A DNA stretch of 64,000 bases from the NCBI GenBank assembly GCA_039944855.1, contig JBDUXZ010000002.1:62001-126000 (forward strand), written 5' to 3'. The first letter of the stretch is position 1; every line of letters starts with the position of its first letter. Shown in pieces: positions 11,011 to 43,754 of the stretch. A program made the translations under genes and the position numbers. Source of the DNA: Rhodothermales bacterium (GTDB lineage Bacteria; Bacteroidota; Rhodothermia; Rhodothermales; JANQRZ01). Under the pieces are notes generated by a model, which ran no database searches, was not told the DNA's origin, and saw only the letters and a program-made list of their open reading frames with translations.

Positions 11011-11014
11011 GCCA

Positions 11015-12502: not shown

Positions 12503-12906
12503 GCGCGGGGCACCAGACCCTGAAGAACGCTCGCTCGCTCGCGTGTGGCGTGACGGCCATCATTGCCCGCGATGCGGCCCGCGTCGGCTCCCACCCCGCG
12601 TCGGCTCCCACCCCGGTTCGGGGGCTGTAGCGTCCCAGCATCGCTGTCTTACAGGACGTAGTGTGAGGGCAGGTTGCTCGAAAGCTCTCCTTGTCCTTCG
12701 CCCTGATGGGGCGAGAGGACGTACCCCATACCGCCGGCGACCTTCAAGGGCAGACCATCGGGGTCCACGTTCTTGCCCCACAGGGGAGCGATGCCCGGCA
12801 CGACAGAGAAGGGGTGCATAGGCTACGGCTCTCGAGCAACGCGGCGGGACACTAGCTGCCCCAGCCGTCACATCCGGCGGCGTATTCCCTTGACTTTGGT
12901 ATCCTA
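12503..12906. other. 404-bp spacer with tandem 17-bp repeat; no convincing gene
   Basis: The spacer lies between the wzy-like and wzx-like genes. Two tandem copies of gcgtcggctcccacccc occupy 12581-12597 and 12598-12614. A 56-codon minus-strand frame (12649-12819) has no recognisable motif. The length is unusual for an otherwise tightly packed operon and may mark a deletion or an eroded gene. No promoter or terminator was recognised. Confidence 0.5.
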
Positions 12907-14337: not shown

Positions 14338-14415
14338 CAGAGCACAGTGAGCCCGTAGATTCTGTTGGTATCACTCCATCCTCCGCCCCACCCAATACGG
14401 GATTCGCTGCACGAC

Positions 14416-15183
14416 ATGCCTAAAGTCGCCCCCCCGCTGGACATATTCCCTGCTTACGACAAGCGCCGTGCAGAAAGCACGGGGCTCCGCAGGTGGATCT
14501 ACAAGCTTTCCCCGATTCCGCTGCACACCCTCACGCCCCTCGTGTTCGAATTGCGGTTATCCGTCCTGCGCATGCTCACTCGACGGGTGCCTCGACAGTT
14601 TCAGGGGATGCGTGACCTGCTCGTCAACATTGGGCCGGGACCGTACGGCAAACCTGGCTGGGTGAACGTAGACATTTTTAAGGCGGAGGGTATTGACTGC
14701 GTGTACGACTGCCGCAAGCATTTGCCCTTCCCGGACCACGCTGTCCGCGCCCTGTTTTGCGAGCACGTCTTCGAGCACATCGACTACACCGAGGAGGCCC
14801 CGCACTTCCTCGCCGAATGTTATCGAGTACTACAACCGGGAGGCGTCGTCCGAATCATCGTGCCGGACGCCGAGGCATACCTCCGGGCCTATTGCGAGAG
14901 TGGCTGGGAGCGGCTCGCCGAGGTCCGACAACTCGGCGAGAACCGCTACGATCCCCATCACGGTGGTCACTACCGTACGAAGATGGAGCTCATCAACGTC
15001 CTATTCCGACAAGGCTTTGAACACAAGTTCCTGTACGATTACGAAACCCTGGCGCTGTTACTGAAGGACGCCGGGTTTTCGCAGGTGAACCGCGGGACCT
15101 TCGGAGAGTCCGTGCTGGATGAACTCAAGATTGACAAGCCCGAGCGCGCTTCCGAGAGTCTTTACGTTGAGGCCATCAAATAG
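14416..15183 (+). CDS. Class I SAM-dependent methyltransferase
   Basis: The product has 255 residues from ATG 14416; the frame extends to 14365 but similarity begins later. The SAM fold is marked by L-V-N-I-G-P-G-P-Y-G (motif I), V-N-V-D-I-F, the helix F-C-E-H-V-F-E-H-I, and Y-R-V-L-Q-P-G-G-V-V-R. This subtype is common in polysaccharide loci, where it is predicted to methylate a sugar or the growing glycan. The actual substrate is unknown. It lies in the polysaccharide operon, 47 bp before a glycosyltransferase. Confidence 0.82.
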   Translation: MPKVAPPLDIFPAYDKRRAESTGLRRWIYKLSPIPLHTLTPLVFELRLSVLRMLTRRVPRQFQGMRDLLVNIGPGPYGKPGWVNVDIFKAEGIDCVYDCRKHLPFPDHAVRALFCEHVFEHIDYTEEAPHFLAECYRVLQPGGVVRIIVPDAEAYLRAYCESGWERLAEVRQLGENRYDPHHGGHYRTKMELINVLFRQGFEHKFLYDYETLALLLKDAGFSQVNRGTFGESVLDELKIDKPERASESLYVEAIK

Positions 15184-15229
15184 CCTCAACGTAGACGAGA
15201 CTCTTGAAACCTCCGATTTCGCCAAGTTG

Positions 15230-16471
15230 ATGTCCGATCCGTATCGTCACCGCCTCATGCTGTTCGAGCCGAACAGCGGGGGGCACCACGCTGGGTACAT
15301 CGCCCACGTCCTCCAGGCATGGCGCAACCTCACCCTTCCGGGCCGCATCGCGGCGGTCGTCTCGCCGCGGCTTTTTGACGAGCACCCTACGCTGCGGGAC
15401 CTCGCGTTCGACGATGGGCACGGTGCAGCGGAGTTTGTGGAAATGCCCGAGGCTCCGGCGCTGAAGGGGCGCTCTCTTCTGGCGAAGGGGATCGGAGAGC
15501 GGCGTCTGCTCAAGGAGTACACCGAGCGGCTGCGGCCCGAACACGTCGTCCACATGTTCATGGACCACGGCCAGTTTGCCCTCGCCACCGGCCTCCGGTT
15601 CTCGTACCCCGTCGAGATCTCCGGCCTTTTCCTCCGCATCTCCCACCAACGTGCGCTCCCCGACGAGACCATGCACGAGCGCGTCGTTCGGCTACGGAAG
15701 CGGTGGCTGCTATGGGCCGCCCTCCGCAACCCCCACATGGGCGTCGTCTTCTCGGCGGACCCGACTGTCGCTCCAGCCGTCCGCGCGCTCGATCCCAGTG
15801 CACGGACCGCAACGCTTCCCGACCCGGTGCCCCTCCCGTCTGGGAATGCCGAGCCGGTCGAGACACGGATGGCCTATGGGGTGGAGCCGGACCGGCAACT
15901 CGTCCTGCTCTTCGGCGTGCTCGCCGAGCGGAAAGGGGTCTTCAAAATGCTGGAGGCGCTTCGCCGACTGCCCGACGCGGTCTGCGCCCGCCTCTGCGTC
16001 CTCTTCGCTGGACCGGTGGAAACGGGGCTCGAAGGGCGGCTACACTCTGCTATGGATGCTGTGCGGCGCGAGCATCCGGTCCAACTCCTCCTCCACGAAG
16101 CCTACCTCCACGAGCCCGAGATCAACGCGCTCTTGGGCGCTGCCGACCTCGCCCTTCTTCCCTACCAGGGGCACTCCGGAACAAGCTCCGTCCTCATCCG
16201 AGCGTCCGGGACACAGCGCCCTGTCTTGAGCCAGAGCTATGGCCTGATGGGCGAGCAGGTCCGCGAGCACGCGCTCGGCCAAGCCGTCGACGCCTCCGAT
16301 CCGCAAGCCATCGCTGATGGGCTCATTCGCTTTCTCGAAAACCCAACGGTAGGATTCGATCCGGCCCGAGCCCGAGCCTTCGCCGAGATGCACACGCCCC
16401 ACGCATACGCCGAGGCCATGCTCGCCCACCTCGACCTGCTGACTTCCCGCTCCGGCGTCCCGTCGCCGTGA
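15230..16471 (+). CDS. Glycosyltransferase, GT4-like
   Basis: The product has about 413 residues from ATG 15230. An open frame back to 15119 overlaps the methyltransferase and is not used. The N-terminus L-M-L-F-E-P-N-S-G-G-H-H-A-G-Y fits a GT-B donor/acceptor fold. The C-terminal half has L-L-F-G-V-L-A-E-R-K-G-V-F and a late L-L-P-Y-Q-G-H-S-G-T-S-S segment at the usual sugar-nucleotide site. It probably adds one sugar of the repeat unit in the cytoplasm. Sugar specificity cannot be deduced. Confidence 0.8.
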   Translation: MSDPYRHRLMLFEPNSGGHHAGYIAHVLQAWRNLTLPGRIAAVVSPRLFDEHPTLRDLAFDDGHGAAEFVEMPEAPALKGRSLLAKGIGERRLLKEYTERLRPEHVVHMFMDHGQFALATGLRFSYPVEISGLFLRISHQRALPDETMHERVVRLRKRWLLWAALRNPHMGVVFSADPTVAPAVRALDPSARTATLPDPVPLPSGNAEPVETRMAYGVEPDRQLVLLFGVLAERKGVFKMLEALRRLPDAVCARLCVLFAGPVETGLEGRLHSAMDAVRREHPVQLLLHEAYLHEPEINALLGAADLALLPYQGHSGTSSVLIRASGTQRPVLSQSYGLMGEQVREHALGQAVDASDPQAIADGLIRFLENPTVGFDPARARAFAEMHTPHAYAEAMLAHLDLLTSRSGVPSP

Positions 16472-17293
16472 GGGCAGCGGTCGCAACATCCACGCGGCCC
16501 CTCCTGCTCCGGCAACCCTGCCTCGGCCTGGCGAACACTGACACATTCAGCCTGCGCTTGCCGACTCGTGCCATCTGAAGCGAGTTCCTCGAGCTGGATG
16601 CCCCGTCTATCTCCCCCCGCGTGACGGTCTCCATCTTCACTATCACGTACTTCCGAGTGACGAGGAACCGCTTGATAAGACGTACCGCATCCTCGCAGAC
16701 CGCTATCTCTTCTCAACTCGCCCGCCCTCTCCATCAACGATCGAATCGGAATTGCTGACGCTTTTCAGGCTCGTGGAATGCGATGCGTGAACACAGCGGA
16801 CAATCCCAAAGTAGAGGAGCCAGCCACAGAAATGTCTTCATACCGCTGAGATCCTTGACCTCCGAACTGACCTATGGAGAGGAAGGGGACCACCCGTTCC
16901 TCAATCCGAAGACACTACATTCATCACCACGTACCGTTATCGATGGGTAGGAATGGAAGACCCGGACCCTGGACAGTCGGGTGCGCTCCTAGTATTGCCC
17001 TTCGCGCACCCTGTCGCTATTCTGGGATCGAGCTTGAGGGTTTCTTGCTGGGCTATTGGTTTCCGAACGGAACCGGTGCGCCAGACAACCACCGTACCAT
17101 AACGCGCCGCAGCGTCTCAACCTGCGCCTTCTCCACTAGCGACGCCCCTGCCGTACCGCGCAGACGTAGTGATCGATGGAAGCGAATCCTTGACCAGGTC
17201 GCTGCCTCGCACACCATAAGCCACGCCTCGCGTAATGAGACCGTTGTTTCTCGGCAACGCACTCCATAATCAGATCACTTCCTCACGACCGCT
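16472..17293. other. 822-bp gene-poor stretch in the polysaccharide locus, possible eroded coding DNA
   Basis: No intact gene is recognised. Protein-like but startless frames occur. One at about 16537-16790 (plus) includes P-L-D-K-T-Y-R-I-L-A-D-R-Y-L-F-S-T. Another, ending at 17102, includes T-F-I-T-T-Y-R-Y-R-W-V-G-M-E-D-P. Neither could be matched to a family. A 131-codon ATG frame at 16874-17269 has poor composition. The pattern suggests one or two genes broken by frameshifts, and base composition is lower in GC than the flanks. This is an impression from reading, not a proven pseudogene. Confidence 0.35.
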
Positions 17294-18550
17294 TTGCCCA
17301 CTCCGATTCGTCGCGTTTGCATTCAATGGCCTAGGCTTGGGCCGCTGCATCTCAACAGGTTGCGTGCCGCTCACGAGGTGCTTGGCCGCCACGGTATCGA
17401 GGTCGTTGCGCTGGAGATCGCAAGCAACGACGCCATCTACGACTGGCGCGAGGAGCAGGCTCCGACACCGTATCCCCGCGAGACGTTGTTCCCCGGTCGC
17501 AATTACGACAACCTGACGCCGGAGCAACTCCATACGGTCACCACGGAGGCCCTCGACAAGCTCAACCCTGACGCCGTCCACATCCACAGCTATGCGACGC
17601 CCGATGCCAGGGCATGCCTTGCTTGGTGCCGTCGCCATCGCCGTGTTGCTGTATGCATGGCCGAGAGCAAAGAGAGCGATGCCCCACGGATATGGTGGCG
17701 CGAGAGACTCAAACACGTCATTGCTTCGGAGTTCGACGCTGCTCAAGCTTCCGGCTCCCCAGGAACTCGCTACGCAGTCAAACTGGGGATCCCTGCCTCT
17801 CGCATCTTCATTGGCTATAGCGTCGTCGATAACGAGTACTTCGCGGAGCATGCGCTGATCGCTCAGAACGATCCCTCGGGAGTCCGCCATCTGCCAGGCC
17901 TCGGCGATCCGACTCCCTTTTTCTTTGCCTCGGCCAGATTCATAGAGCGCAAGAACCTTCCAGCGCTCCTGCACGCCTACGCCCGCTACCGCCGCGAGAG
18001 CCCTGAACCTTGGCGGCTTGTGCTCATCGGAGATGGCCCGCTCCGTCCTCAGCTCGAACAAATCATTGCCGATGAGCAGATAGAGGGCATAACGCTGGCC
18101 GGATGGATGCAGATCGAGCACCTCCCCTCGTACTACGGGCTCGCGTCCGCTTTCGTCCATACTGCTGAGGTCGACCAGTGGGGTCTCGTGGTGAACGAGG
18201 CCATGGCTGCCGGCCTCCCCGTCATCGTTTCCACCGGAACCGGGTGCTCCGAGGACCTCGTCCACGACGGCGAGAACGGGTTCACGTTCCGGCCCGACGA
18301 TATCGCCACGCTTGCTCGCCACCTCTACGCTGTGGCGCACGAGGTCGATCGCGATGGCTTCGCCCAGCGATCCCGCGAGATCATCGCGGAGTGGCCGCTG
18401 GAACGATTTGGAACCAGCCTCCACCAAGCTGTCGAGGCCGGAGCGGAGGTGGCTGACCGGCGGGGCTTTAGCCTGCTTGCGCGCGCCGCCCTGTGGGCTT
18501 TGCGGAAGGCGTCACGGTCAATCACGTCGTTCCATAGCATTGCGAGGTAG
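17294..18550 (+). CDS. Glycosyltransferase family 4 protein
   Basis: The product is a 418-residue GT-B enzyme, apparently starting with TTG 17294. The C-terminal domain shows A-S-A-R-F-I-E-R-K-N-L-P-A-L-L, then L-I-G-D-G-P-L, and the nucleotide-sugar site E-V-D-Q-W-G-L-V-V-N-E-A-M-A-A-G-L-P-V-I, the canonical E-x7-E region of GT4 enzymes. It should transfer an activated sugar to the lipid-linked repeat unit. It follows the gene-poor stretch, so its start and upstream region may have been rearranged. Confidence 0.87.
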   Translation: MPTPIRRVCIQWPRLGPLHLNRLRAAHEVLGRHGIEVVALEIASNDAIYDWREEQAPTPYPRETLFPGRNYDNLTPEQLHTVTTEALDKLNPDAVHIHSYATPDARACLAWCRRHRRVAVCMAESKESDAPRIWWRERLKHVIASEFDAAQASGSPGTRYAVKLGIPASRIFIGYSVVDNEYFAEHALIAQNDPSGVRHLPGLGDPTPFFFASARFIERKNLPALLHAYARYRRESPEPWRLVLIGDGPLRPQLEQIIADEQIEGITLAGWMQIEHLPSYYGLASAFVHTAEVDQWGLVVNEAMAAGLPVIVSTGTGCSEDLVHDGENGFTFRPDDIATLARHLYAVAHEVDRDGFAQRSREIIAEWPLERFGTSLHQAVEAGAEVADRRGFSLLARAALWALRKASRSITSFHSIAR

Positions 18551-18635
18551 CAACCGCTCGGCTCTCACGCGCTTATTCTTAACTCCAGCCGCCCTCCCTC
18601 CTTCGCTCGTTTACCTAGCTAGTAACCCCGTCGCT

Positions 18636-19430
18636 ATGACTGCCCCCAACTCTCTCCAAGACCGTGTCGAGCGCGAACGCGCCGCGCACACCGAGGACGA
18701 CGTGCTGGGCCGGAGTGCCCAACTCAAGGACCGGTTCAGCCACATCTGGCGCTACCCCGCCCTCCGCCGACTCCTCGACACCCTCGAAGGCCATCTCTCC
18801 AACCTCGACGGGAAGCGCGTTCTCGACCTCGGCTGCGGGCGTGGCGAGCGGAGCCTGACGCTGCTCGAACGAGGCGCCACCGTCGACGGCATCGACATTT
18901 CCCCTGTCTACATCGGACAGGCCGAGGACGAAGCCCGCGCCGCCGGCTTCCCCGACGCCCGCTTCACGTTCATCGCCGGCGACGCGCACCACCTCCCGTA
19001 CGACGACGCCTCGTTCGACCTCGTCGTCGGCGACGGCATCCTTCACCACCTCGACCTCGACGCAGCGCTCGGCGAGGTCCACCGCGTCCTGAAGCCGGGC
19101 GGACGGGCGCTCTTTCGCGAGCCACTCCTCGACAACCCCCTCCTCAAACTCTTCCGCGCCCTCACGCCGAAGGCACGCACCGAGGACGAGCTCCCGCTCA
19201 GCACGTCGGACCTCCAGCAAATCGAGGCCTCGGACCGGTGGAACGTCGAGAGCTCGTACTGCGGCCTCCTCAGCGCCCCGGTTGCCGTGGTGACATCGTT
19301 CGTGCTGCGCCCCTTCCCGAACAACGTCTTCCTCCGTGCCGCCGACCGGGTGGAGCAGGCCTTGGCTAGCCGGAAATCGCTCCACGCGAAGCATCAGTAC
19401 GTCCTGCTCAATCTCGTGCGTCGCGCCTGA
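18636..19430 (+). CDS. Class I SAM-dependent methyltransferase
   Basis: The product has 264 residues from ATG 18636. Motif I is V-L-D-L-G-C-G-R-G-E-R-S, followed by V-D-G-I-D-I-S, an acidic motif in F-I-A-G-D-A-H-H-L-P, and V-L-K-P-G-G-R-A-L-F-R-E-P. This is the UbiE/Methyltransf_11 type. It closes the polysaccharide locus and could modify a sugar or a lipid; the substrate is not evident. Codon use is more GC-biased than in the wzx-to-glycosyltransferase block, so it may belong to the resident genome. Confidence 0.85.
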   Translation: MTAPNSLQDRVERERAAHTEDDVLGRSAQLKDRFSHIWRYPALRRLLDTLEGHLSNLDGKRVLDLGCGRGERSLTLLERGATVDGIDISPVYIGQAEDEARAAGFPDARFTFIAGDAHHLPYDDASFDLVVGDGILHHLDLDAALGEVHRVLKPGGRALFREPLLDNPLLKLFRALTPKARTEDELPLSTSDLQQIEASDRWNVESSYCGLLSAPVAVVTSFVLRPFPNNVFLRAADRVEQALASRKSLHAKHQYVLLNLVRRA

Positions 19431-32675: not shown

Positions 32676-32751
32676 GACTCCGTAGCTCAGTTGGTAGAGC
32701 AGCTGGCTTTTAACCAGCGGGTCGTAGGTTCGAGCCCTACCGGAGTCACCA
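32676..32751 (+). tRNA. tRNA-Lys (anticodon TTT)
   Basis: The acceptor stem GACTCCG pairs with CGGAGTC. The D-arm contains AGCTCAGTTGGTAGAGC. The anticodon arm CTGG-CTTTTAA-CCAG carries TTT, and the T-arm contains GGTTCGAGCC. Discriminator A is followed by an encoded CCA. It heads a two-tRNA unit with tRNA-Leu. Confidence 0.97.
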
Positions 32752-32786
32752 CGGCAGACGCCTCGCGGCGTCGGTCGTCCCCATCC

Positions 32787-32870
32787 GCCCGGGTGGTGGA
32801 ATTGGTAGACACGCACGCTTGAGGGGCGTGTGCCCGAAAGGGCGTGCTGGTTCGACTCCAGTCCCGGGCA
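32787..32870 (+). tRNA. tRNA-Leu (anticodon GAG)
   Basis: The acceptor stem GCCCGGG pairs with CCCGGGC. The anticodon stem CACGC/GCGTG encloses TTGAGGG, giving anticodon GAG. A long variable arm (TGCCCGAAAGGGCG) is typical of class II tRNAs such as Leu. The CCA end is not fully encoded: CCT follows the discriminator A. Confidence 0.96.
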
Positions 32871-32874
32871 CCTC

Positions 32875-32918: not shown

Positions 32919-32982
32919 GTGGCCCGTCCCCTCTTGCCCGAGCGCACGCAGGTGCACCTCTACAGTAAAATCGAGCGCCGCC

Positions 32983-33012
32983 TTGATTCTTTCTAGCTGC
33001 CGTATACCTTTG
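32983..33012 (+). promoter_or_regulatory. Bacteroidota-type -33/-7 promoter for the cytochrome gene
   Basis: TTG at 32983-32985 and an exact TAnnTTTG match, TACCTTTG at 33005-33012, are 19 bp apart. Both spacing and sequence match the consensus of the Bacteroidota primary sigma factor. Transcription would start near 33018-33020, leaving a leader of about 70 bases before the cytochrome ATG. Confidence 0.7.
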
Positions 33013-33086
33013 CAGTTGCCGCCCGCTCAAACCCTTCCCGGCGGGGCGCCCTCCCTCCCCTAGCCCCTCCCGCGTCGAGATTCGCC

Positions 33087-34136
33087 ATGAGACATCCGCT
33101 CATACTCCATTCGTGGTGGATCGCGCCGCTCGCGCTGCTGTTCGGCCTCGCCCTCACGATGCCCTTCGCGCCCGGCCCTCCCCCCGACGACTCGCCGTAC
33201 CTCCGCATCGACCCGGAGAAGATCGTCCTCAACCCGAGGAACGACCGGCAGCCGTGTGGCGAGTGCCACCTGCTCGAGTACGAGGTGTGGCAGGGGACGC
33301 CCCACGCCACCACCTTCGACGAGCTCCACAGGACGGAGCAGGCGCGCGCTATTCTGGACCGAATGGGGCTGCGCCTCGCCAAGCGCGAGAGCCTCTGCCT
33401 CCGCTGCCACTACACCACGAAGATCGTAGACGAGCAGCCGCGAGCGATCGCCGGCGTCTCGTGCGAGAGCTGCCACGGGGCCGCACGCGACTGGCTCGAC
33501 ATCCACAACAACTTCGGCGGCGCGACCCGCCAGACCGAGACGGCCGAGCACCGCGCGGTGCGGGTGGCGCAGAGCCGCGAGGCCGGGATGCTGCGCCCGT
33601 CGGACGACCTCTACGCCGTCGCGGCCAACTGCTTCGAGTGCCACACGGTCCCCAACGAGCAGCTCGTCAACGTCGGCGGCCACCTCCCCGGCAGCGCGTT
33701 CGAACTCCTCGACTGGTCGGCCGAGATCCGACACAACTTCGTGGACTCCCAGGGCAGCACCGACCAGACCAACCGGGCGCCCACTCCCGAGCGCAGGCGG
33801 ATGATGTACGTGCTGGGCCGCGCGCTCGACTACGAGTACAGCCTCCGGGCGCTAGCGAAGGCGACGACGGAGGGCCTCTTCGCTCAGGCGATGGCGCAGC
33901 GCGTGCAGCGGGCCGGGCGTGAGATCGACCGGATCCTCGACGTGGCTGACGTGCCGGCGCTGCAGGAAGCGCGGGCGCTCGGAGAGGCCGTGGCGCTCGG
34001 ACCCGGCAACGGCGAGGCGCTCGGCGGGGCCGCCGGCCAGATCGGAGAGGTCATGCGCGCCTTTGCCCGGGCGCACGACGGGTCCACGCTCGAAGCCATC
34101 GATCCACTCCTCGCTTCTTCCGGGGATGATGGGTAG
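33087..34136 (+). CDS. Tetraheme cytochrome c family protein
   Basis: The product has 349 residues. An N-terminal hydrophobic anchor/signal lies at residues 9-28. Four CxxCH heme sites follow: C57-H61, C104-H108, C126-H130 and C182-H186. The layout resembles the cytochrome c-554/multiheme family. Additional histidines (H73, H81) could serve as distal ligands. The C-terminal third is heme-free and mostly helical. It is periplasmic or membrane-tethered and should transfer electrons. The partner enzyme is not in the neighbourhood, and the gene appears to be transcribed alone from its own promoter. Confidence 0.88.
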   Translation: MRHPLILHSWWIAPLALLFGLALTMPFAPGPPPDDSPYLRIDPEKIVLNPRNDRQPCGECHLLEYEVWQGTPHATTFDELHRTEQARAILDRMGLRLAKRESLCLRCHYTTKIVDEQPRAIAGVSCESCHGAARDWLDIHNNFGGATRQTETAEHRAVRVAQSREAGMLRPSDDLYAVAANCFECHTVPNEQLVNVGGHLPGSAFELLDWSAEIRHNFVDSQGSTDQTNRAPTPERRRMMYVLGRALDYEYSLRALAKATTEGLFAQAMAQRVQRAGREIDRILDVADVPALQEARALGEAVALGPGNGEALGGAAGQIGEVMRAFARAHDGSTLEAIDPLLASSGDDG

Positions 34137-34155
34137 TGCTCCGACCGTCTCACTT

Positions 34156-34295
34156 TGTCATCCTGAGCGGAACGGAGTCGAAGAACCCTAAGGCTCGGCG
34201 AAGCCCATCTCTTCGGGCATGGCTCCAACGGGCTGGCGGGGCTCCCCCCGGAGAGATCCTTCGACTGCGGCCTGCGGCCTTCGCTCAGGATGACA
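34156..34295. repeat. 140-bp palindromic intergenic element (tgtcatcctgagcg type)
   Basis: Perfect 14-bp inverted ends, tgtcatcctgagcg at 34156-34169 and cgctcaggatgaca at 34282-34295, border it. An inner pair around agtcgaag and cttcgact is also complementary. Similar sequences are widespread intergenic elements in bacteria. It sits between the convergent ends of the cytochrome and CHAT genes, and is distinct from the element at 22798. Confidence 0.82.
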
Positions 34296-34366
34296 GGACA
34301 AGGTGAGGCGGCGTTCGCCCACGGGCTCCCGTAGCAACGGGCTCCCCGAGCACGACGAATATTGTT

Positions 34367-37300
34367 CTACGGCCCCTCCCGCCGCAGCGCCGCGTGCGGG
34401 TGGCCGTAGACGGCGTAGGCCAGCCACGAGGCATCCTCGAACCGCGCCTTCTCGCGCGCCTTCCGCGTCGCCTCCGCGAGCGTGTCGCCGTCGCCGAGCG
34501 CGTCGTAGAGCGCTTCGGTGAACGCCCGCGCCGGCGCGTCGCCCACCGACCACAGCGTGCCGACGAACGCGCCCGCCCCGGCCTGCAGGAACGCCTGCGC
34601 GAACCCGCCGATCTTCGTCAGCGAGAACCCGAGCCGCCCGGCCTGACACGCGTTGACGACGACGAGCGGGCGGTTGCCGTCCTCGCCGACGAGGTTGCCG
34701 TGCTCGGCGACGGTCGTGGCGCTGAGGTAAGCAGGGATCACCGCCCCGTTCTCAACGCGGCCCTCCAGCTTCAGGCTCGCGAGCGTGATGTTGTCGTGCT
34801 CGGCCTCGCCGTGGCAGGCGAAGTGGAGCAGGTCGAACGCGCCGGGCGTGCGGAGCAGCTTGCGGATGGACTGCTGATCCGCATCGACGCGCTGGGCGCC
34901 GAAAGCGTGTTCGAGGTAGCCCGCTTCTTCCTGCGCTTCGGGCAGCACGTCGTCGGGGTGCGGGTAATCGGGGATGACGAAGCGGGCGCGGCCGGGCCGA
35001 AGCCGGAGCGCCTCGGGCGGCCACCCCTCGATGTACGGCGGGAGCCCGTCGTGGAGCCAGCGGACGAGGCCGAACTGCGCGAGGAAGAGGGTCTCATCGG
35101 GGAGCCCGGGCGCGCCGGGCGGCTTGAGGTGGACGAGCTCCCACGGGATGAACGGCTCCGTCGAGAGCACCTGAATGCTCCCGAGCCGATCGCGGTACTT
35201 CCAGAGCAGGCCCTGCAGCTCGTCCGGGAAGAGCCGCGTGAAGAGCGACGCGCCGAGCGCCCGCAGCTCCTCCGTGAAGTCGTCGAGGTCCTGCCCCCCG
35301 CCCAGCCACCGGTCCTCGATCTCCCGGTAGAGGTTGTCGACGTACTCGCGCCGGTCCATCTTTAACGGCGCGCTCACGAACCGCTTCAGCACGGCGCCGG
35401 GGATTTCGAGGTCGAACTCGTAGTAGCTCTCGCCACCCACGTCGCGCTCGTCGATGCGGAGCTGGTTGAGCGGCTCGGCGAGCGGCGGGGCCGACACGCC
35501 GACGCCCTCGGCGCGCACCGGCCGCGCCCCGTCGTCGGGCACGGCGGCGGTGATCTCGACGAGCAGCTTGAGCTTGACGAGGGGCACCTGCCCCTGCCGC
35601 GCCGTGATGTGGACCTCGCCCTCCCCCACGTCCACGGCCCGGAGGTCGAAGTACAGCTCGGCCGGGTCGTTCGGGTTCGGAGGGGGGATCGTCGCTCGTA
35701 GGTCGCCGACGGCTTCGAACCCGCGCCGGGGCCGCACGTCGAGGATGATCGGGCGCTCGGGGTCGACGGCGTCCGACTGCCCGCTCGCCGTCGCCTGCCC
35801 GACGGCTACCGCAATGGCTTCGCGCGCGACGGCGACCATGAGCGTCGCGTCGTGCCCTGCCTGCACGCGCTGCGGCATCTCGGCGTAGAAATGACAGGCC
35901 ACAGGCGCGGGGTCGGCGTGGGGCACGTCGCCAGGGGCCGAAGCGGACTCTTCGTAGTCCCACACTCCGCCGTCATCCAGCGGCGCCATCTCCTCTTCCC
36001 ATGCCCCGCCGTCGTCGGCCGAAGCCATCTCCTCTTCGTATCCCGCTTGTTGCTGCTGTTGCTGCTGTTGCTGCTGTTGCTGCTGTTGCTGCTGTTGCTG
36101 CTGTTGCTGCTGTTGCTGCTGTTGCTGCTGTTGCTGCTGAGGATACGCGACACCCGCCCCCGCGCCCGGATTTCTGCCTCGACGGGTCCCTCCTCGCGTC
36201 GTGCGAGGCGGCGGTGCCGGAGCCGGCGCGGACGGTGCTGACGGAACCGGTGGCGGCGCACTCTCGGCCATCTTCGGCGGCGCGGCACGCTCGGCCAGTT
36301 CCCGGCTCGACAGCGCCGCCGGACGCTCGGCGAGCACCCCGACGGGTCGCCCCTCGTCCAGCACGACGACGCGGCCCGTCGTCGGCCCCGCCGTGTAGTC
36401 GGGCACGTCGGGCAGCGACTGCCCCGCCCGCGCGCTCGGCGACTCTTGAAACTCGTGCATCCCGAGCGCATCGAGCAGCGCTGCATCGGGCGGCGCATCG
36501 CCCGCCATCTCCCGCACTTCCTCGGCCCGGTAGGCGTAGTTCAGCACTCGGTCGCCGTACCCCCGCCGCACGACGACGTAGTCCGCGGGCTCGGCGTCGA
36601 GTTGGTCGAGGACTTCGCCGGCCGTCGTGTCCGACGTCGTCGTGAGGATCGCGGTGTTCACGGCGACGGGCAGGTCCCGCGTCGCGCCCCGGCGCGACGA
36701 GCGGCGGCGCGGCGCACTCGCCGCGAGCGACGGCTCGGGCAGCGCCAGCCACCGCGCGAGCGCCGCGACGACCTCGGGCCGCGTGAAGTAGTTCGTGTGG
36801 TAGACGTGCGGGTTCTTCCCAAGGTCGAGGTGGTCTTTCACGAAGCGCCCCGCGTCGACGTCGATGGCCGTCATTGACGCGGTGTTCACGACGAGGTCGC
36901 TGTCGTCGCGGAAGAGGGCGTCGGTGACGCGGTCGCCGAGGGCGGCGAGGAGGCGAGCGGGAAGCTCGTGCGGCTCGTGATCGCCCGTCAGTTGCGCGTG
37001 GAAGTTGGAGGTGATGGCGCAGTAGCTCGTCCAATCCCGCTCGGGCTGACCGGGCTGCACCTCATTCAGCGTGCGGAGGAACGGGCCGTCCGGCTGCATC
37101 GCGGCGAGGCCGGGCACGGCCCCCTCCGTCACGACTTCCGTCGCGAGATATTTCATGAGCGCGCCGAGGCCCTGCACCAGTTCTTTGAGCAGCGTCGCCA
37201 CGAACGTCGCGGCCGGGACGAGACTGACGGCGCGGAAGACGCCGACGGCGATGTTCGTGTAGAGGTCGACGAACGTGTGCCAGTTCTCGGGGTCGGCGAG

Positions 37301-38347
37301 GCCCGTCCCCGCGTTCGGCGTGCCGACGAAGACGACGCGGCCGAACGTCGGCCGCCACGCTTCGCCGGGGAGGACGAGTTCGACGAGGCTCCGGTACACG
37401 AGCCCGCCCCGGCTGTGCGTCACGACGTCAATCTGGGGCGGGTGCTCGCCCACCGTGCGGAGGCGGCGCAGCAGGTCCTGCGCGTTCGCCTTCGGATCGA
37501 CGCTCAGCGTGGGGTGGTCGAAGCCGAGCACGGCGTCGTACGTCCGCTCCGCTTCGCGGAGGAGGTGCCGCCCCCACGGATACGCGGCGAGCGCTCCGTA
37601 CGCGCCGGCCGTGCTGCTGAACGTGCCGTGGATGAAGAGCAGCAACCGCGCCGGTCGATCCGTCGGCAGCCCGAGCCCGCCGAGCCCATCGAGCCGCCGC
37701 CACTGCGTCGGGTCGCCGCCGTCCATCACGAGGAGGCCCGGCCGGACGTGCTGCTCCAGCGTGCTCATCGCCTTCGCCGCCGCCTTTTTCGCGACGAACC
37801 GGAGGACGTAGAGCTTGGCCTTGTCGAGAATTTTGTCGAGGACGAGGTCTTTGATGAACCCGCGCGTCGCGCGCTCCGGCGGCCCACCCGCAGCCGGCGA
37901 GAGTTCGATCGTGAACCGTACTTCGCGCGGTCCCGAGCCTCCGCTGCGGCGGCGCGGCCCTGCCGGGGTCGGCGGCGCGTCCGGCAGCTTCCACGCATAG
38001 ACCCCGTCCTGCTCGACGAGAACGACGGCCTCCTCCTCTCCGCCGAGTGGCACGTCGACGGCCACGCTCTGCGGCCCCGCCGGACTCGGTCCGCGCCGCG
38101 TCGTCGACGGGCGGGCGGCGGGGAGGTCCATGCTCGTCACGGTGAAGCCCTGCTCTTCGAACGCGGCAGCGACGGCGCTCGCCTCGGCCCCATCGTCGCC
38201 CGCGGCGCCGGCCACGCCCGGCAGCGGGCGGGGAGCGTAGCGATCGCCGCGGCCTCCACCGCGGCGGGTGGGCGGAGCGGCGGGCGCTTCGTAGTCCGAG
38301 GGAAGGGTGATGCGGATGCCGCTCTCGTGCTCGATGATGCTGGACAT
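34367..38347 (-). CDS. Multidomain alpha/beta hydrolase - polyglutamine - CHAT protease protein
   Basis: The product has 1326 residues and no signal peptide. At about 225-500 lies an alpha/beta hydrolase with L-L-L-F-I-H-G-T-F and nucleophile Ser312 in T-H-S-R-G-G. A region at about 555-680, ending in G-R-V-V-V-L-D-E-G-R-P-V-G-V-L, looks CBS-like. A proline-rich linker then leads to 31 consecutive glutamines (residues 737-767). A beta-sandwich segment follows at about 800-930. The C-terminal 270 residues are a CHAT domain, a caspase-like cysteine protease, with His1179 (F-A-C-H-G) and Cys1234 (N-A-C-Q-A-G). It is probably cytoplasmic. CHAT proteins act in bacterial immunity and cell-death systems, so a defence or effector role is plausible but inferred. 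Boundaries are approximate. Confidence 0.85.
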   Translation of the reverse strand: MSSIIEHESGIRITLPSDYEAPAAPPTRRGGGRGDRYAPRPLPGVAGAAGDDGAEASAVAAAFEEQGFTVTSMDLPAARPSTTRRGPSPAGPQSVAVDVPLGGEEEAVVLVEQDGVYAWKLPDAPPTPAGPRRRSGGSGPREVRFTIELSPAAGGPPERATRGFIKDLVLDKILDKAKLYVLRFVAKKAAAKAMSTLEQHVRPGLLVMDGGDPTQWRRLDGLGGLGLPTDRPARLLLFIHGTFSSTAGAYGALAAYPWGRHLLREAERTYDAVLGFDHPTLSVDPKANAQDLLRRLRTVGEHPPQIDVVTHSRGGLVYRSLVELVLPGEAWRPTFGRVVFVGTPNAGTGLADPENWHTFVDLYTNIAVGVFRAVSLVPAATFVATLLKELVQGLGALMKYLATEVVTEGAVPGLAAMQPDGPFLRTLNEVQPGQPERDWTSYCAITSNFHAQLTGDHEPHELPARLLAALGDRVTDALFRDDSDLVVNTASMTAIDVDAGRFVKDHLDLGKNPHVYHTNYFTRPEVVAALARWLALPEPSLAASAPRRRSSRRGATRDLPVAVNTAILTTTSDTTAGEVLDQLDAEPADYVVVRRGYGDRVLNYAYRAEEVREMAGDAPPDAALLDALGMHEFQESPSARAGQSLPDVPDYTAGPTTGRVVVLDEGRPVGVLAERPAALSSRELAERAAPPKMAESAPPPVPSAPSAPAPAPPPRTTRGGTRRGRNPGAGAGVAYPQQQQQQQQQQQQQQQQQQQQQQQQQQQQQQQAGYEEEMASADDGGAWEEEMAPLDDGGVWDYEESASAPGDVPHADPAPVACHFYAEMPQRVQAGHDATLMVAVAREAIAVAVGQATASGQSDAVDPERPIILDVRPRRGFEAVGDLRATIPPPNPNDPAELYFDLRAVDVGEGEVHITARQGQVPLVKLKLLVEITAAVPDDGARPVRAEGVGVSAPPLAEPLNQLRIDERDVGGESYYEFDLEIPGAVLKRFVSAPLKMDRREYVDNLYREIEDRWLGGGQDLDDFTEELRALGASLFTRLFPDELQGLLWKYRDRLGSIQVLSTEPFIPWELVHLKPPGAPGLPDETLFLAQFGLVRWLHDGLPPYIEGWPPEALRLRPGRARFVIPDYPHPDDVLPEAQEEAGYLEHAFGAQRVDADQQSIRKLLRTPGAFDLLHFACHGEAEHDNITLASLKLEGRVENGAVIPAYLSATTVAEHGNLVGEDGNRPLVVVNACQAGRLGFSLTKIGGFAQAFLQAGAGAFVGTLWSVGDAPARAFTEALYDALGDGDTLAEATRKAREKARFEDASWLAYAVYGHPHAALRREGP
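36047..36139. repeat. Microsatellite of ttgctgctg units encoding polyglutamine
   Basis: The 93 bp consist of one ttg followed by ten copies of the 9-bp unit ttgctgctg on the plus strand. On the minus strand these are 31 CAG/CAA glutamine codons inside the CHAT protein gene. Each unit change keeps the frame, adding or removing three glutamines. Slippage could therefore vary linker length between the hydrolase and CHAT halves. Confidence 0.97.
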
Positions 38348-38548
38348 GGGTTCCCGGGTTCAGAATGGACGGTCCGATGAGGTCACTCATCATTCTATTT
38401 TACAAAAGACTACCCCACTACCGCCGCGTAACCTTCATTCTTTGCCCACACCCCCACGAAGCGCGATGACCGCGCCGCTATATTGGCGCGCGGTCCTCTC
38501 TCCTTTGTCCGAACGTCCCTCTCCACTCCTCCTATTCGAACCCCGTCT

Positions 38549-39772
38549 ATGCGCCCTGTCATTACGGGAATCGGGATGATCAGCGCCTTAGGACCGGAGC
38601 GCGATCCCATATGGGAGATGTTGTTGGCGGGCAGGCCGCGCATGGGCGCCATCTCGGCGTTCGAGGCCGCATCGCACGGCATGGAAAACTGCGTCGTCTC
38701 CGAGATCGCGGATCAGGACCTGGAGGCCCGGCTCGATCAGCTGCGCGCGCGCTCGATCACGACGAAGCGGGGCCGGTTCCGCTCGCTCGCGCTGGCCGCA
38801 GCGGCCGAAGCGCTCGACGACGCCGGCTTGCCCGGCGAGGACCCGGAGGACCGCGCCTCGGCCGGCATCGTGATGGGCACGCTCTCCGCCGGCGCCGCCG
38901 AAGTCGAACGCATCGCGCACGCCACGTTCAGCGGCGGGAAACCGAGTGTTGCCGACAACCTGGGCAAGCGGACCAGCATCGTGCTCCAGGATATCGCCCG
39001 GGCCTTCGACCTGAGCGGTCCCGCCCTCGGCGTCGACGCGGCGTGCGCCAGCGGCGCCGTGGCCCTCACGCACGCCTGCCGCCTTGTCGCCACCGGCGCG
39101 CCCTGGTGCCTGGCGGGCGGCGTCGAAGCGTCCATCGTCGCGTCCAACGTCAAGCTGGCCCACGTCCTCGGCATCGTCCCGACCTCGTTCATCGACGAGC
39201 CCCACCGCTCGTCGCGCCCCTTCGATCTCCGACGCGAAGGCTACGTCCCGGCCGAGGGCGCGTGCTTCCTCGTCCTCGAAGACGAAGCGCACGCCCGCCG
39301 GCGCGGAGCCCGCATCTACGCCCGCATCACTGGGTTCGCCGAGCAGACGTACACGGGCCACCCGACGCAGCTCTGTGACACGTTCGCGGAGGCGTTGATG
39401 CACAAAGCTCTCCGCCGCGCCGACGTTCGTGCGGACCAACTGGGCTGGATCAACGCGCACGCCACGTCGACACGCCAGGGCGATATCGCCGAAGCCACGG
39501 CCATCGGCCGGATGGGCGAGGCGGTGTTGTGCTCCGCTCCGAAGTCCGTCACGGGCCACCTGCTCGGCGCGAGCGGGGCCTTCGAAGCGGCGTTCTCGGC
39601 CCTGTCCCTGCACGACCAGGTCATCCCGCCCACCGTCAACCTCGACGACCAGGACGCGCTGTGCCCCGTCCGCTGCGTCCGGGAACGGACCGACGCGGCC
39701 TTCGACTACGTACTCTCGAACTCGCTCGGGTTCGGCGGGATGAGCTGCTCCATCGTCTTCGGACGCGCCTGA
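38549..39772 (+). CDS. Beta-ketoacyl synthase (FabF-like KAS)
   Basis: The product has 407 residues from ATG 38549, where similarity begins (R-P-V-I-T-G-I-G-M-I-S). The thiolase-fold triad is intact: Cys166 in D-A-A-C-A-S-G-A, His304 in N-A-H-A-T-S-T, and His337 in V-T-G-H-L-L-G-A-S-G. Such enzymes join malonyl units to acyl carriers. It lies 60 bp upstream of the acyl-AMP ligase/carrier/acyltransferase fusion. It therefore probably belongs to a specialised lipid or secondary-metabolite pathway and not to primary fatty-acid synthesis. Product unknown. Confidence 0.92.
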   Translation: MRPVITGIGMISALGPERDPIWEMLLAGRPRMGAISAFEAASHGMENCVVSEIADQDLEARLDQLRARSITTKRGRFRSLALAAAAEALDDAGLPGEDPEDRASAGIVMGTLSAGAAEVERIAHATFSGGKPSVADNLGKRTSIVLQDIARAFDLSGPALGVDAACASGAVALTHACRLVATGAPWCLAGGVEASIVASNVKLAHVLGIVPTSFIDEPHRSSRPFDLRREGYVPAEGACFLVLEDEAHARRRGARIYARITGFAEQTYTGHPTQLCDTFAEALMHKALRRADVRADQLGWINAHATSTRQGDIAEATAIGRMGEAVLCSAPKSVTGHLLGASGAFEAAFSALSLHDQVIPPTVNLDDQDALCPVRCVRERTDAAFDYVLSNSLGFGGMSCSIVFGRA

Positions 39773-39832
39773 CCCTCCCGGCACCCGCGACACCATCGTG
39801 CCGCTCCGTAGCCGTGCGAGCCCTCGTTTCCC

Positions 39833-42763
39833 ATGCTGCCCCTCCAAGCGCACCCTCTCCGACCCCCGCCGGGCGTAGGCGTCCTGCCGGGGCGCTCGAT
39901 GGTCGAGGTCTTCCTGAACCGGGTGGAGCAGGCGCCGCAGTACCGTCCGCTCCTCTTCTTGCAGGAGGACGGCACGACGGAGTCCACCCCTCTCGGCCAG
40001 CTTCACGAGGAGGCCCTGCACTACGCCCGGAGCCTGCGTGCCCGAGGCGTCGCGCGGGGCGACCTGGTCATCCTCGTGTTCCCTCACTCGGGCGACCTCA
40101 TCACGGCCTTCTTGGCCACGCTGTACCTAGGCGCGCTCCCGGCCATCGCCCCGTATTTCAACCCGCAGGCGCCCCTCGACGTGTACCAGGGGCAGGTCCA
40201 GAAGCTGGTAGCCTCCGTGGGCGCGCGTGCCGTCGCAACCTCGGCCGCGCTCGAACGAACCCTGATCCCGTTCCTCGCCGAGACCGGCTGCGAGGTGGTG
40301 GGACTCGCTGGGGAGCAGACGCCTGCGGACCCCGCGCCGCTCCACCCATACCTCGCCGCCGGACACGAGACCGCATACGTGCAATTCTCCAGCGGGACGA
40401 CCAGCCTGCCCAAAGGGGTGATGCTGTCCCACGAGGCCGTGCTGGAGTACTTGCGCACCTCGTGTGACACGTTCGCCTATACCGAGGACGACGTCACCGT
40501 GGGCTGGCTCCCGCTGTACCACGACATGGGGCTGGTCACCCAGGTTCTGACACCGCTGCTGTCGGGCGTGCCCTCGGTGCTCATCTCGCCGTTCCACTGG
40601 ATGCGCCGTCCCGAAGCCCTGCTGTCGGCCATCGACCGGTTCCGGGGCACGATCAGCTGGATGCCCAACTTCGCCTTCAGCTACTGCGTGCGGCGTACGC
40701 AGCGGCGCGACCTGACAGGCTTGGACCTCAGCAGCTGGCGCATCCTGGGCTGCGGCTCCGAGCCCATCCAAGCCGAGAGCCTGCACCGCTTCGCCGATCG
40801 GTTTGCGCCCTTCGGGTTCCGGCGCTCCGCGCTCCTGGCGGGATACGGGATGGCGGAGAACGTCGCCGGCATCACCTTCTCCCCGCTCGACCGGGAGCCG
40901 GACGTGGAGTGGGTCTCCGTGCCCGCTCTGCAGCAGCAACGAGCGGTTCCGGCCACGCGAGGCGGGGGCGACACCGTGGCCCTCGTCGGATGCGGGTACC
41001 CCAAACCCGGCATCACGCTGCGCATCACGGACGAAGCCGGTCAGCCTGTGCCGGAGCGCCAAGTCGGGGAAGTGTTCGTCCAGAGTCCGTGCCTCTTCGA
41101 GGGCTATCTCCGGCAGCCGGACGTGACGGAGGCTGCCTTCCACGGGGACTGGTTTCGCACGGGGGACCTGGGATATCTCGCTGAGGGGCAGCTCTTCCTG
41201 TGCGGACGCAAGAAGGACCTGATCATCGTGGGCGGCAGTAACGTGCACCCCGAGCACATCGAAGCCGCCGCGCGCGCGGCCCTGGGCGCGCAGGCGGGCC
41301 GGCTGGTCGCCTTCGGCGTGCCGGACGAGCGGGCTGGCACCGAGCGGCCCGTTCTGGTGTGCGAGGCGGCACAGCGCCTTCCCGATGCCGAGCGCGACGC
41401 GTTGGCGCAGCGGGTGCGCCAGCGGGCGTTCGACGAGCTAACGATCGCGCTGGGCGAGGTCTGCTTCGTCGACAAGGGCTGGATCGCCAAGACGACGAGC
41501 GGGAAGCTGGCGCGCGCGGCCAGCCGGCAGAAGTACCTCGGGCTGCGAGAGGATCGCGACGTCTCCCGATCCGAAGGGCCGCTCGACACGGCGCCGGCCG
41601 GGTCGCCGCAGGTGCTCGAACGGCAGCTGCAAACGCTGTTCGAAACCCAGCTCGGCGTCCACCCCATCGACCCCAGCGACAACCTCTTCACCGTCGGCGG
41701 CGACTCGATCCAGATCATGAGTGCGCTGGCGGAGATCGAGGCCCGCACGGGCCGGGACGTGCCACTCGAAGCCTGGATGCAGGACCCTACGATCGCGCAC
41801 TTGGTGACGCTGCTCCGGCAGCAGTCCCTCATCGATCCCGCTTCCCCCGACGGTCCGGCGTCACCCGGTGATGCCCTTCCCGCTCATCCGCCCAGGCATC
41901 TCAAAGAGTTCGCTCGCCGGGTGATCGTGGCCTGTCTGCCGTACCCGGTCGGTGCCCGGCTCGTCGCGCGCTTCTTCGGCCAGCCGATGGTGCAACGGCT
42001 CCTGTTTCGTGACGAGGTGCGATTCCTGCGTCAGTTCTACCAGTTGATCGAGCAGCCGCTCGTGGACGAGGCCGCGTTCATCCACCAGGCCCTCACGTTC
42101 CGGAGGGGCCGTCTCTGGCGCATCGCTGGCCGCGTCCGGGCTACGCCGGAGGACATGAACCGCTGGGGCGAGGTCGTGGGGTGGCCCCGCTTCCAGCGCG
42201 CCTACGAGCAGGGGCGCGGGGTCGTGCTCGTGCATGCCCACACGCTCTCCCTCTCCTTCGCGCGGCGTGTTCTCGAGCGACTGATGCCCTCCGATCTCCG
42301 CGCGCTCGTCAGCGTGGCCGTGGCGGAGGGCGATCTGACCGACGTAGAGCGGGAGGCCGCCCTGCAGCAGCGCTACGTAGAGCAACTGTACACGTGTCAG
42401 AAAACGCTGGAGCGGGGCGGCATCGTCAGCATCGCGGGGGACGATCGCTATGGGGCGAGCCGAGGCGTGACCGTGCCCTTCCACGGCCGGCAGCGCGCGT
42501 TCAAAACGGGCTTCGCCCATCTCGCCGTGGCGACGGGCGCGCCGGTCCTCCCCGTCTTCTCATCCTCCGACCTGACGGGGAGGACGACGATCGAATTCGG
42601 CGAGCCGCTGGCCTACGCCGATCAGGCTCCCGACGAGCAGGTCGACGCTCTGGTCAGGGCCTACGCAGCCTATCTCAAAGAGAAGTGGAGGGGAGGCGCC
42701 GCGAACGTTCCCCCTGCCAAGATGCGCTACCACCAGGCGCTTCCCCCCTCGGCGGCTCCGTGA
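39833..42763 (+). CDS. Trifunctional fatty acyl-AMP ligase - acyl carrier protein - LpxL-like acyltransferase
   Basis: The product has 976 residues in three parts. Residues ~20-565 form a FAAL-type adenylation domain: Q-F-S-S-G-T-T-S-L-P-K-G, L-P-L-Y-H-D-M-G-L, G-Y-G-M-A-E, W-F-R-T-G-D, R-K-K-D-L-I-I-V, and a terminal T-S-G-K-L-A-R lysine. Residues ~590-665 form a carrier domain with phosphopantetheine Ser625 in G-G-D-S-I-Q-I. Residues ~690-960 resemble lysophospholipid/lipid A acyltransferases (G-I-V-S-I-A-G-D-D-R, then V-P-F-H-G-R-Q-R-A-F-K-T-G). The order suggests that a fatty acid is activated, loaded on the carrier, and transferred to an acceptor on one polypeptide. The acceptor is unknown. 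Confidence 0.85.
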   Translation: MLPLQAHPLRPPPGVGVLPGRSMVEVFLNRVEQAPQYRPLLFLQEDGTTESTPLGQLHEEALHYARSLRARGVARGDLVILVFPHSGDLITAFLATLYLGALPAIAPYFNPQAPLDVYQGQVQKLVASVGARAVATSAALERTLIPFLAETGCEVVGLAGEQTPADPAPLHPYLAAGHETAYVQFSSGTTSLPKGVMLSHEAVLEYLRTSCDTFAYTEDDVTVGWLPLYHDMGLVTQVLTPLLSGVPSVLISPFHWMRRPEALLSAIDRFRGTISWMPNFAFSYCVRRTQRRDLTGLDLSSWRILGCGSEPIQAESLHRFADRFAPFGFRRSALLAGYGMAENVAGITFSPLDREPDVEWVSVPALQQQRAVPATRGGGDTVALVGCGYPKPGITLRITDEAGQPVPERQVGEVFVQSPCLFEGYLRQPDVTEAAFHGDWFRTGDLGYLAEGQLFLCGRKKDLIIVGGSNVHPEHIEAAARAALGAQAGRLVAFGVPDERAGTERPVLVCEAAQRLPDAERDALAQRVRQRAFDELTIALGEVCFVDKGWIAKTTSGKLARAASRQKYLGLREDRDVSRSEGPLDTAPAGSPQVLERQLQTLFETQLGVHPIDPSDNLFTVGGDSIQIMSALAEIEARTGRDVPLEAWMQDPTIAHLVTLLRQQSLIDPASPDGPASPGDALPAHPPRHLKEFARRVIVACLPYPVGARLVARFFGQPMVQRLLFRDEVRFLRQFYQLIEQPLVDEAAFIHQALTFRRGRLWRIAGRVRATPEDMNRWGEVVGWPRFQRAYEQGRGVVLVHAHTLSLSFARRVLERLMPSDLRALVSVAVAEGDLTDVEREAALQQRYVEQLYTCQKTLERGGIVSIAGDDRYGASRGVTVPFHGRQRAFKTGFAHLAVATGAPVLPVFSSSDLTGRTTIEFGEPLAYADQAPDEQVDALVRAYAAYLKEKWRGGAANVPPAKMRYHQALPPSAAP

Positions 42764-42884
42764 GGAGACGGCTGCCCCGCCCGCCGGTCCCTTTTGCCCG
42801 CATCTCCACGGAGCGCAGCGACCCCGCCGCGCCGCGCCGCGTAGCTTCGGTTCGCATCCTCTTCCCGGCCCGTTCTCCTCTCTT

Positions 42885-43754
42885 ATGCGCCCCGCTCTCC
42901 GCGACCTGCTCGACCTCCTCGACCTCGAAAAGATCGAAGAGAACATCTTCCGTGGCTTCAACCGCAACCTCGGCTCGAAGCGCGTCTTCGGCGGGCAGGT
43001 GCTCGCGCAGGCGCTCGTCGCGGCGGCCCGGACGGTCGAGCCGGACCGCGTGGCGCACTCGCTCCACGCCTACTTCATCCTCCCCGGTGACATCGAGGCC
43101 CCGCTCGTCTACGACGTGGACCGCATCCGCGACGGCGGCTCCTTCACGACGCGGCGCATCCGCGCGGTGCAGCACGGCCGGCCGATCTTCAACATGTCGG
43201 CCTCGTTCCAGCGCGTCGAGGACGGGCACGAGCACCAGACGACGATGCCCGACGTGCCCGGACCCGACGGCCTCGCCTCGGAGATCTCCCTCATCCGCGC
43301 GATTGCCGACCGCATCCCGGAGCCCCTCCGCGCGACCTACACCCAGGACCGCCCGTTCGAGTTCAGGCCCGTCGATCCGGTGAACCCCTTCGCCCCCGAG
43401 CAGCGCCCGGCCGAGCACGCCGTGTGGTTCCGCGCCGTCGACGCCCTGCCGGACGACCTCGCCGTCCACCAGAGCCTCCTCGCCTACGCCTCCGACCACG
43501 GCCTCCTGCCCACGGCACTCCGCCCGCACAGCCTCTCGTGGCTCCAGCCCGACCTCCAGATCGCCAGCCTCGACCACGCGATGTGGTTCCACCGCCCCTT
43601 CCGCGCCGACGAGTGGCTGCTCTACGTGACGGAGAGCCCAACGGCGTCCGGCGCGCGCGGCTTCACGCGCGGCTCGGTCTACACCCAGGCGGGCGCGCTC
43701 GTCGCCACCGTGACGCAAGAAGGGCTGATGCGCCTGCGTGAACCGAAGGGATAA
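42885..43754 (+). CDS. tesB: Acyl-CoA thioesterase II
   Basis: The product has 289 residues with a double hotdog fold. The TesB pattern G-S-K-R-V-F-G-G-Q-V-L-A-Q-A-L and H-S-L-H-A-Y-F-I-L-P-G-D lies in the first half. D-H-A-M-W-F-H-R-P-F-R-A-D-E-W-L, with the catalytic aspartate region, lies in the second. It hydrolyses acyl-CoA to free fatty acid. It follows the acyltransferase fusion by 121 bp on the same strand and could supply or recycle fatty acids for that pathway, or simply be a housekeeping neighbour. Confidence 0.93.
   Translation: MRPALRDLLDLLDLEKIEENIFRGFNRNLGSKRVFGGQVLAQALVAAARTVEPDRVAHSLHAYFILPGDIEAPLVYDVDRIRDGGSFTTRRIRAVQHGRPIFNMSASFQRVEDGHEHQTTMPDVPGPDGLASEISLIRAIADRIPEPLRATYTQDRPFEFRPVDPVNPFAPEQRPAEHAVWFRAVDALPDDLAVHQSLLAYASDHGLLPTALRPHSLSWLQPDLQIASLDHAMWFHRPFRADEWLLYVTESPTASGARGFTRGSVYTQAGALVATVTQEGLMRLREPKG

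Follow-up and report, generated by a model that had tools for sequence, protein, structure and literature searches.

The window analysed here, that is the whole stretch of 64,000 nucleotides, carries a gene for a ketoacyl synthase (KAS) followed by a gene for a 976-residue chain in which a fatty acyl-AMP ligase (FAAL), an acyl carrier protein (ACP) and an LpxL-like acyltransferase are fused. It is proposed, with modest confidence, that these two genes form a horizontally acquired cassette that would activate an acyl group independently of CoA and transfer it to an acceptor other than lipid A. The host genome measures 4.6 Mb in 41 contigs. The features concerned are the following:

32676-32872, + strand: tRNA-Lys(ttt) and tRNA-Leu(gag), conserved left flank
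32919-42884: accessory block of about 10 kb (cytochrome c554-like protein, CHAT protein, KAS, fusion)
38549-39772, + strand: KAS, FabF-like, 407 aa, starting at an ATG within the open reading frame listed from 38483
39833-42763, + strand: FAAL-ACP-LpxL-like three-domain fusion, 976 aa
39893-41542, + strand: FAAL domain, about residues 21-570 (PRK09192, 3kxw, motifs)
40895-40969, + strand: FAAL-specific insertion, about residues 355-379 (alignment)
41624-41815, + strand: acyl carrier domain, residues 598-661 (PF00550 PP-binding, 4.1e-11)
41705-41707, + strand: Ser625, predicted phosphopantetheine site (GGDSI)
41903-42760, + strand: LpxL/HtrB-like (LABLAT) domain, about residues 691-976 (PF03279 and own profile)
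42239-42241, + strand: His803, block I catalytic histidine
42254-42256, + strand: Ser808, where the HX4D/E acid would be expected
42350-42352, + strand: Arg840, aligned to the block II Arg (PatA R164, LpxM R159), the profile alignment being less certain here
42440-42445, + strand: Asp870-Asp871 (GDDRYG), block III acid matching PatA E200 and LpxM D192
42885-43754, + strand: TesB acyl-CoA thioesterase II, 289 aa, conserved right flank

The three open reading frames announced by the initial annotation (KAS, the 976-residue fusion and TesB) are all present, the KAS gene lying 60 bases upstream of the fusion gene. GC content at third codon positions stays between 0.83 and 0.92 in every 300-base step across the fusion and, given this steadiness, the single frame that runs through the three domains looks genuinely coding rather than open by chance. 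This also bears on the idea that the window holds decaying foreign genes devoid of current function. Decay would fit with genes confined to one genome of the host order and with a non-canonical catalytic motif, but the frames are intact, the third-position signal is strong throughout and the motifs of both KAS and FAAL are complete, and this explanation is regarded as improbable.

The combination of FAAL, carrier and LpxL-family domains in one chain was borne out by Pfam matches, by a FAAL-specific insertion and by Ser625, the predicted carrier serine (GGDSI motif), as first noted. The N-terminal part of the fusion matches AMP-binding PF00501 (residues 49-426, 9.3e-57) and contains the motifs of adenylate-forming enzymes (SSGTT186, GYGMAE337, TGDLGY443 and TSGK555). 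Its top NCBIfam model is the fatty acyl-AMP ligase PRK09192 (9e-113, below the curated cut-off), its closest solved relatives are FAALs, with the Legionella FAAL 3kxw as top PDB entry (1e-71), and a free-standing FAAL from Leptolinea sp., 39% identical, is its best match among the proteins retrieved. FAALs are separated from CoA ligases by a specific insertion. In the alignment, a 25-residue insertion is common to the fusion and eight FAALs and missing in three ACS-type proteins, one of which comes from the host genome. On this alignment, the ligase is a true FAAL, for which rejection of CoA and loading of holo-ACP are predicted from the family. The host genome has one 4'-phosphopantetheinyl transferase gene.

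The KAS preceding the fusion is complete, as first described, with its N- and C-terminal Pfam domains (PF00109, 5.5e-31; PF02801, 2.1e-22) and an intact Cys-His-His triad (Cys166, His304 and His337). Domains and triad place it in the KAS I/II type without its reaching the curated FabF equivalog cut-off: FabF-type NCBIfam models score best, at 276 versus 387 bits and 274.7 versus 493.75 bits. The host genome encodes only one other KAS homologue, 33% identical, and no close homologue (E <= 1e-62) was found in 396 genomes of the phylum. In a tree of low resolution, the KAS of the window does not group with those of flexirubin or aryl-polyene (ape) clusters.

The C-terminal domain matches PF03279 (Lip_A_acyltrans; residues 699-911, 6.7e-11, 42.4-42.9 bits versus a cut-off of 22.3). 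This is the sole PF03279 match of the host genome; the family occurs in 89 of the 118 genomes of a phylum sample and is missing from every other genome of the host order and class listed in it. A profile built for this work from 39 homologues aligns to the domain over blocks I-III (2.8e-18). As in PatA, LpxM and LpxL, the block I His, the block II Arg and the block III acid are kept, but the window domain differs from these enzymes by the Ser found in place of the HX4D/E acid (H803-TLSL-S808), by its fused carrier and by a host without LpxC. This acid is retained in all but one of the 39 profile homologues, the exception (Asn) being a protein from an aryl-polyene-like cluster of Roseomonas. 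The glycine-rich part that deals with the acyl donor, VPFHGRQRAFKTGFAHLAVATGAPVLPVF, is well conserved, while the C-terminal family motif YPxxWF...W is not retained. A single-sequence AlphaFold2 model made without alignment has a pLDDT of 38, and in the LpxL tree the domain sits on a long branch beside a protein of Hydrogenedentota, a placement that is not reliable.

The missing acid raises the alternative that the LpxL-like domain has no catalytic activity and serves only to dock acyl-ACP or the membrane, the FAAL-ACP loader then feeding KAS to give a beta-keto acid or a longer acyl chain. The fall in activity by 3000-fold of E. coli LpxL E137A and the critical role of E127 in LpxM (PMC6286764) lend some weight to it, as do the intact KAS triad and the precedent of NocH (FAAL-ACP) and NocG (ketosynthase), described in a FAAL review (PMC11837247). 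However, the charge-relay partner of the PatA histidine is E200 of block III and not D131 of HX4D: D131A retains 37% of activity whereas H126A and E200A abolish it (PMC4792965). Likewise, LpxJ is devoid of any block I acid (PMC6148475). Since PatA and LpxJ use block III, activity of a domain that keeps His803, Arg840 and the block III acid is plausible, the roles of the latter two residues being taken from PMC4792965 and PMC6286764. Two other LpxL-like proteins also lack the acid (L016:7674-8585 of Roseomonas, with Asn, and L073:8519-9616 of Hydrogenedentota, the phylum of L069, with Gly), so that a protein without it is not necessarily dead; their sequences hint at a wider non-canonical LABLAT subgroup. 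The view that the loss of HX4D/E proves a dead domain was thus rejected on the PatA/LpxM alignment and the two studies just cited, and the non-catalytic alternative is considered rather unlikely. The LpxL-like domain is a divergent LABLAT member whose activity is no more than plausible.

Its acceptor is a distinct question. The first reading had proposed a lysophospholipid or lipid A-type acyltransferase: assignment to the LpxL family holds, but a lipid A-type reaction is unlikely. LpxC is a marker of the lipid A (Raetz) pathway and no match to it (PF03331) was obtained in the host genome, which is 97.9% complete and in which controls did match. This makes lipid A very unlikely as the acceptor, and it was discarded as a candidate. 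Enzymes of the LpxL type serve acceptors beyond lipid A, PatA for instance acylating a mannose of PIM. Beside the cassette, no gene was recognised for tailoring, for export or for making an acceptor.

The genomic context points to an insertion. The accessory block sits between the terminator of tRNA-Leu and TesB. In both same-family genomes compared (G001 and G002, all that the searches for relatives returned), TesB, queF and queC come next after tRNA-Lys(ttt) and tRNA-Leu(gag), with the same order after TesB as in the window, and cytochrome c, CHAT, KAS and fusion genes are all absent from the syntenic site. With both flanks of the block syntenic on the same contig, an assembly contaminant is unlikely. 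TesB (Pfam Acyl_CoA_thio, 6.4e-46; TIGR00189 passed) is 81-82% identical in these two genomes. A thioesterase does follow the fusion as initially noted, but its membership of the pathway was rejected, as it occupies the same site in sister genomes devoid of KAS and fusion; judged by gene order, TesB is a neighbour by ancestry, outside the cassette.

Acquisition of the block is favoured over its loss in the sisters, although the two are not fully separable, because close homologues of KAS and of the acyltransferase domain are missing or almost so from the phylum and order samples. Besides the domain itself, the 396 phylum genomes contain one weak, canonical LpxL at E <= 1e-8, and in the order's remaining 113 genomes nothing matched the acyltransferase domain at E <= 1e-6. 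No direct repeat of more than 10 bases was found at the ends of the block.

Two other genes of the block deserve mention. One (33087-34136, + strand) encodes a cytochrome c554-like protein with four CxxCH motifs and has no counterpart at the syntenic site of either sister. The other (34367-38347, - strand) encodes a 1326-residue CHAT-domain protein with DUF7379, DUF7363, DUF7362, TCAD7 and CHAT domains, a run of 31 glutamines (36047-36139, CAG/CAA repeat) and a weak PADLOC match of its CHAT part to BovA (1.8e-5); it is possibly a conflict-system protein. Elsewhere in the window, the region 9787-19430 has a low GC content (about 0.61-0.63 at 10-18 kb versus about 0.70) and carries genes for Wzz, O-antigen ligase, flippase, glycosyltransferase and methyltransferases, and is thus probably a variable surface-polysaccharide locus.

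The initial annotation could name no characterised pathway with this gene set, and none was found in the literature searched either. The search for the three-domain architecture, which it had suggested, yielded no second FAAL-ACP-LpxL chain. It covered about 570 genomes (396 of the phylum, 114 of the order and 68 of Hydrogenedentota), 72,556 plasmids and scans of GTDB and IMG/VR with LpxL or KAS peptides, scans that reach close relatives only and do not prove absence.

Fusions that follow a similar plan are nevertheless known. Fusions of FAAL to ACP, PKS or NRPS are reported in the FAAL review (PMC11837247). In the NocH-NocG pair of nocuolin A, a FAAL-ACP didomain stands beside a ketosynthase as in the window (PMC11837247), but it belongs to a cyanobacterial natural-product pathway and has no acyltransferase domain; other FAAL-ACP didomains are comparable. 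In the host order itself, FAAL-ACP-PF00155 three-domain fusions were recognised by Pfam (L003 and L007) or by sequence pattern (L002, L004-L006 and L008). They have FAAL and then ACP in the same N-to-C order as the window fusion, but their third domain has a PLP aminotransferase fold (alpha-oxoamine-synthase-like) instead of being LpxL-like, and their FAAL parts are 32-35% identical to that of the window. They probably act as synthases of the sphingolipid or sulfonolipid type, the acyl feed being built into the same chain. They resemble the separate proteins AasR, AcpR and SPT of Caulobacter, for which a dedicated acyl-ACP feed into sphingolipid synthesis was shown (PMC9386255).

Proteobacterial plasmids provide another case, the ACP-FAAL-PlsC (PF01553) fusions of Methylobacterium nodulans (L013:6632-9481, WP_012631269) and Paraburkholderia phymatum (L014:6578-9487). 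These chains, close in length to the window fusion, likewise bring together an adenylating, a carrier and a glycerolipid-type acyltransferase domain, but their carrier is N-terminal and their acyltransferase belongs to the PlsC family, a branch other than LpxL. Downstream of the M. nodulans fusion, at about 1.4 kb, is a gene annotated as CDP-archaeol synthase. With at least two independent precedents, the principle of fusing FAAL and carrier to an acyl-using enzyme is not new; judging from the sequences compared, what is new is the FAAL-ACP-LpxL combination in one chain, its parts and general plan being already known.

A further likeness concerns pigment clusters. In the aryl-polyene and flexirubin clusters (E. 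coli CFT073 ape, flx and the Roseomonas cluster L016), ketosynthase, ACP, AMP ligase and LpxL-like acyltransferase cooperate (PMC8253772, PMC3992019), but as separate genes and with two ketosynthase partners, ketoreductase, dehydratase, LolA and MMPL export. The Roseomonas cluster, which is aryl-polyene-like, has LpxL, AMP ligase, ACP and ketosynthase together. In five flexirubin-type clusters of Bacteroidota type, an ACP gene directly precedes the LpxL-like gene, and in four of them a ketosynthase gene lies just upstream; one of these clusters (L061) contains an aromatic ammonia-lyase gene, which supports its assignment to flexirubin. The KS-ACP-LpxL order of L060, L061, L063 and L064 is matched in the window, with FAAL at the N-terminus of ACP-LpxL. 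By analogy, the fusion looks like the ACP-LpxL step of flexirubin-type clusters with its own FAAL attached. In E. coli, a proposed role of the acyltransferases ApeD and ApeJ is to link the pigment to its lipid anchor (PMC8253772). The LpxL-like part is contained in ApeJ; ApeD was wrongly considered as an LpxL relative, its motif being PlsC-like.

This gene order, together with a block III of the DRY type as in flexirubin-type clusters, could suggest a shrunken aryl-polyene- or flexirubin-like pigment pathway in which the ligase would load an aryl acid, KAS extend it and LpxL anchor the product. The ligases of pigment clusters act on aryl acids such as 4-hydroxybenzoate and coumarate (PMC8253772, PMC3992019), whereas the window ligase, which carries the insertion, is a true FAAL. 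Moreover, the neighbours scanned (part of the window genes) include no recognised second ketosynthase/chain-length factor, ketoreductase, dehydratase, MMPL or LolA. In its tree of low resolution KAS does not group with pigment-cluster ketosynthases, and in the LpxL tree the domain lies on a long branch. A pigment pathway thus appears quite doubtful.

The reading retained is therefore that of the CoA-independent cassette. The FAAL domain would adenylate a carboxylic acid in free form (in all likelihood a fatty acid, given the enzyme family) and would load it in cis onto the phosphopantetheine carried by Ser625. KAS may then lengthen or condense the carrier-bound acyl chain, as its adjacency and intact triad suggest; neither a reductase nor a dehydratase was recognised next to it. 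Finally, the LpxL-like domain, through His803 and Asp870/871, would acylate an acceptor other than lipid A at a hydroxyl or an amine. By analogy, this mode would resemble both the ACP-LpxL anchoring proposed for aryl-polyene and flexirubin pigments and the FAAL-ACP feed of bacterial sphingolipid synthesis, but would combine loading and transfer in a single polypeptide. Domains and motifs, the FAAL insertion, the KAS residues, the coding signal, absence from the sisters and of close homologues from the phylum sample, the phosphopantetheinyl transferase, the lack of LpxC and of a second PF03279 match, the ACP-LpxL pairs, the Roseomonas cluster and the kept His and block III were counted in favour of the cassette. 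Counted against it were Ser808, the loss of YPxxWF...W, the lack of an orthologue to show selection, the lack of recognised helper genes and the unusable structure model (pLDDT 38). A more specific proposal is put forward only tentatively: the fusion could be a self-loading, CoA-free O- or N-acyltransferase working by a His803-Asp870/871 relay that dispenses with the HX4D/E acid and producing an undescribed lipid or lipid-linked metabolite, whose chain would be set by KAS.

A 2024 review of aminolipids considers that FAAL-type feed of aminolipid synthesis is not established (PMC11631085). The fusions compared here draw a repeated pattern, in which FAAL and carrier are joined to varied acyl-using enzymes (aminotransferase-fold, PlsC and LpxL). 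A FAAL, a carrier and an acyltransferase in one chain would allow CoA-free acyl transfer to an acceptor to be tested with a single protein, and an LpxL domain devoid of the HX4 acid would show to what extent block III can sustain catalysis by itself.
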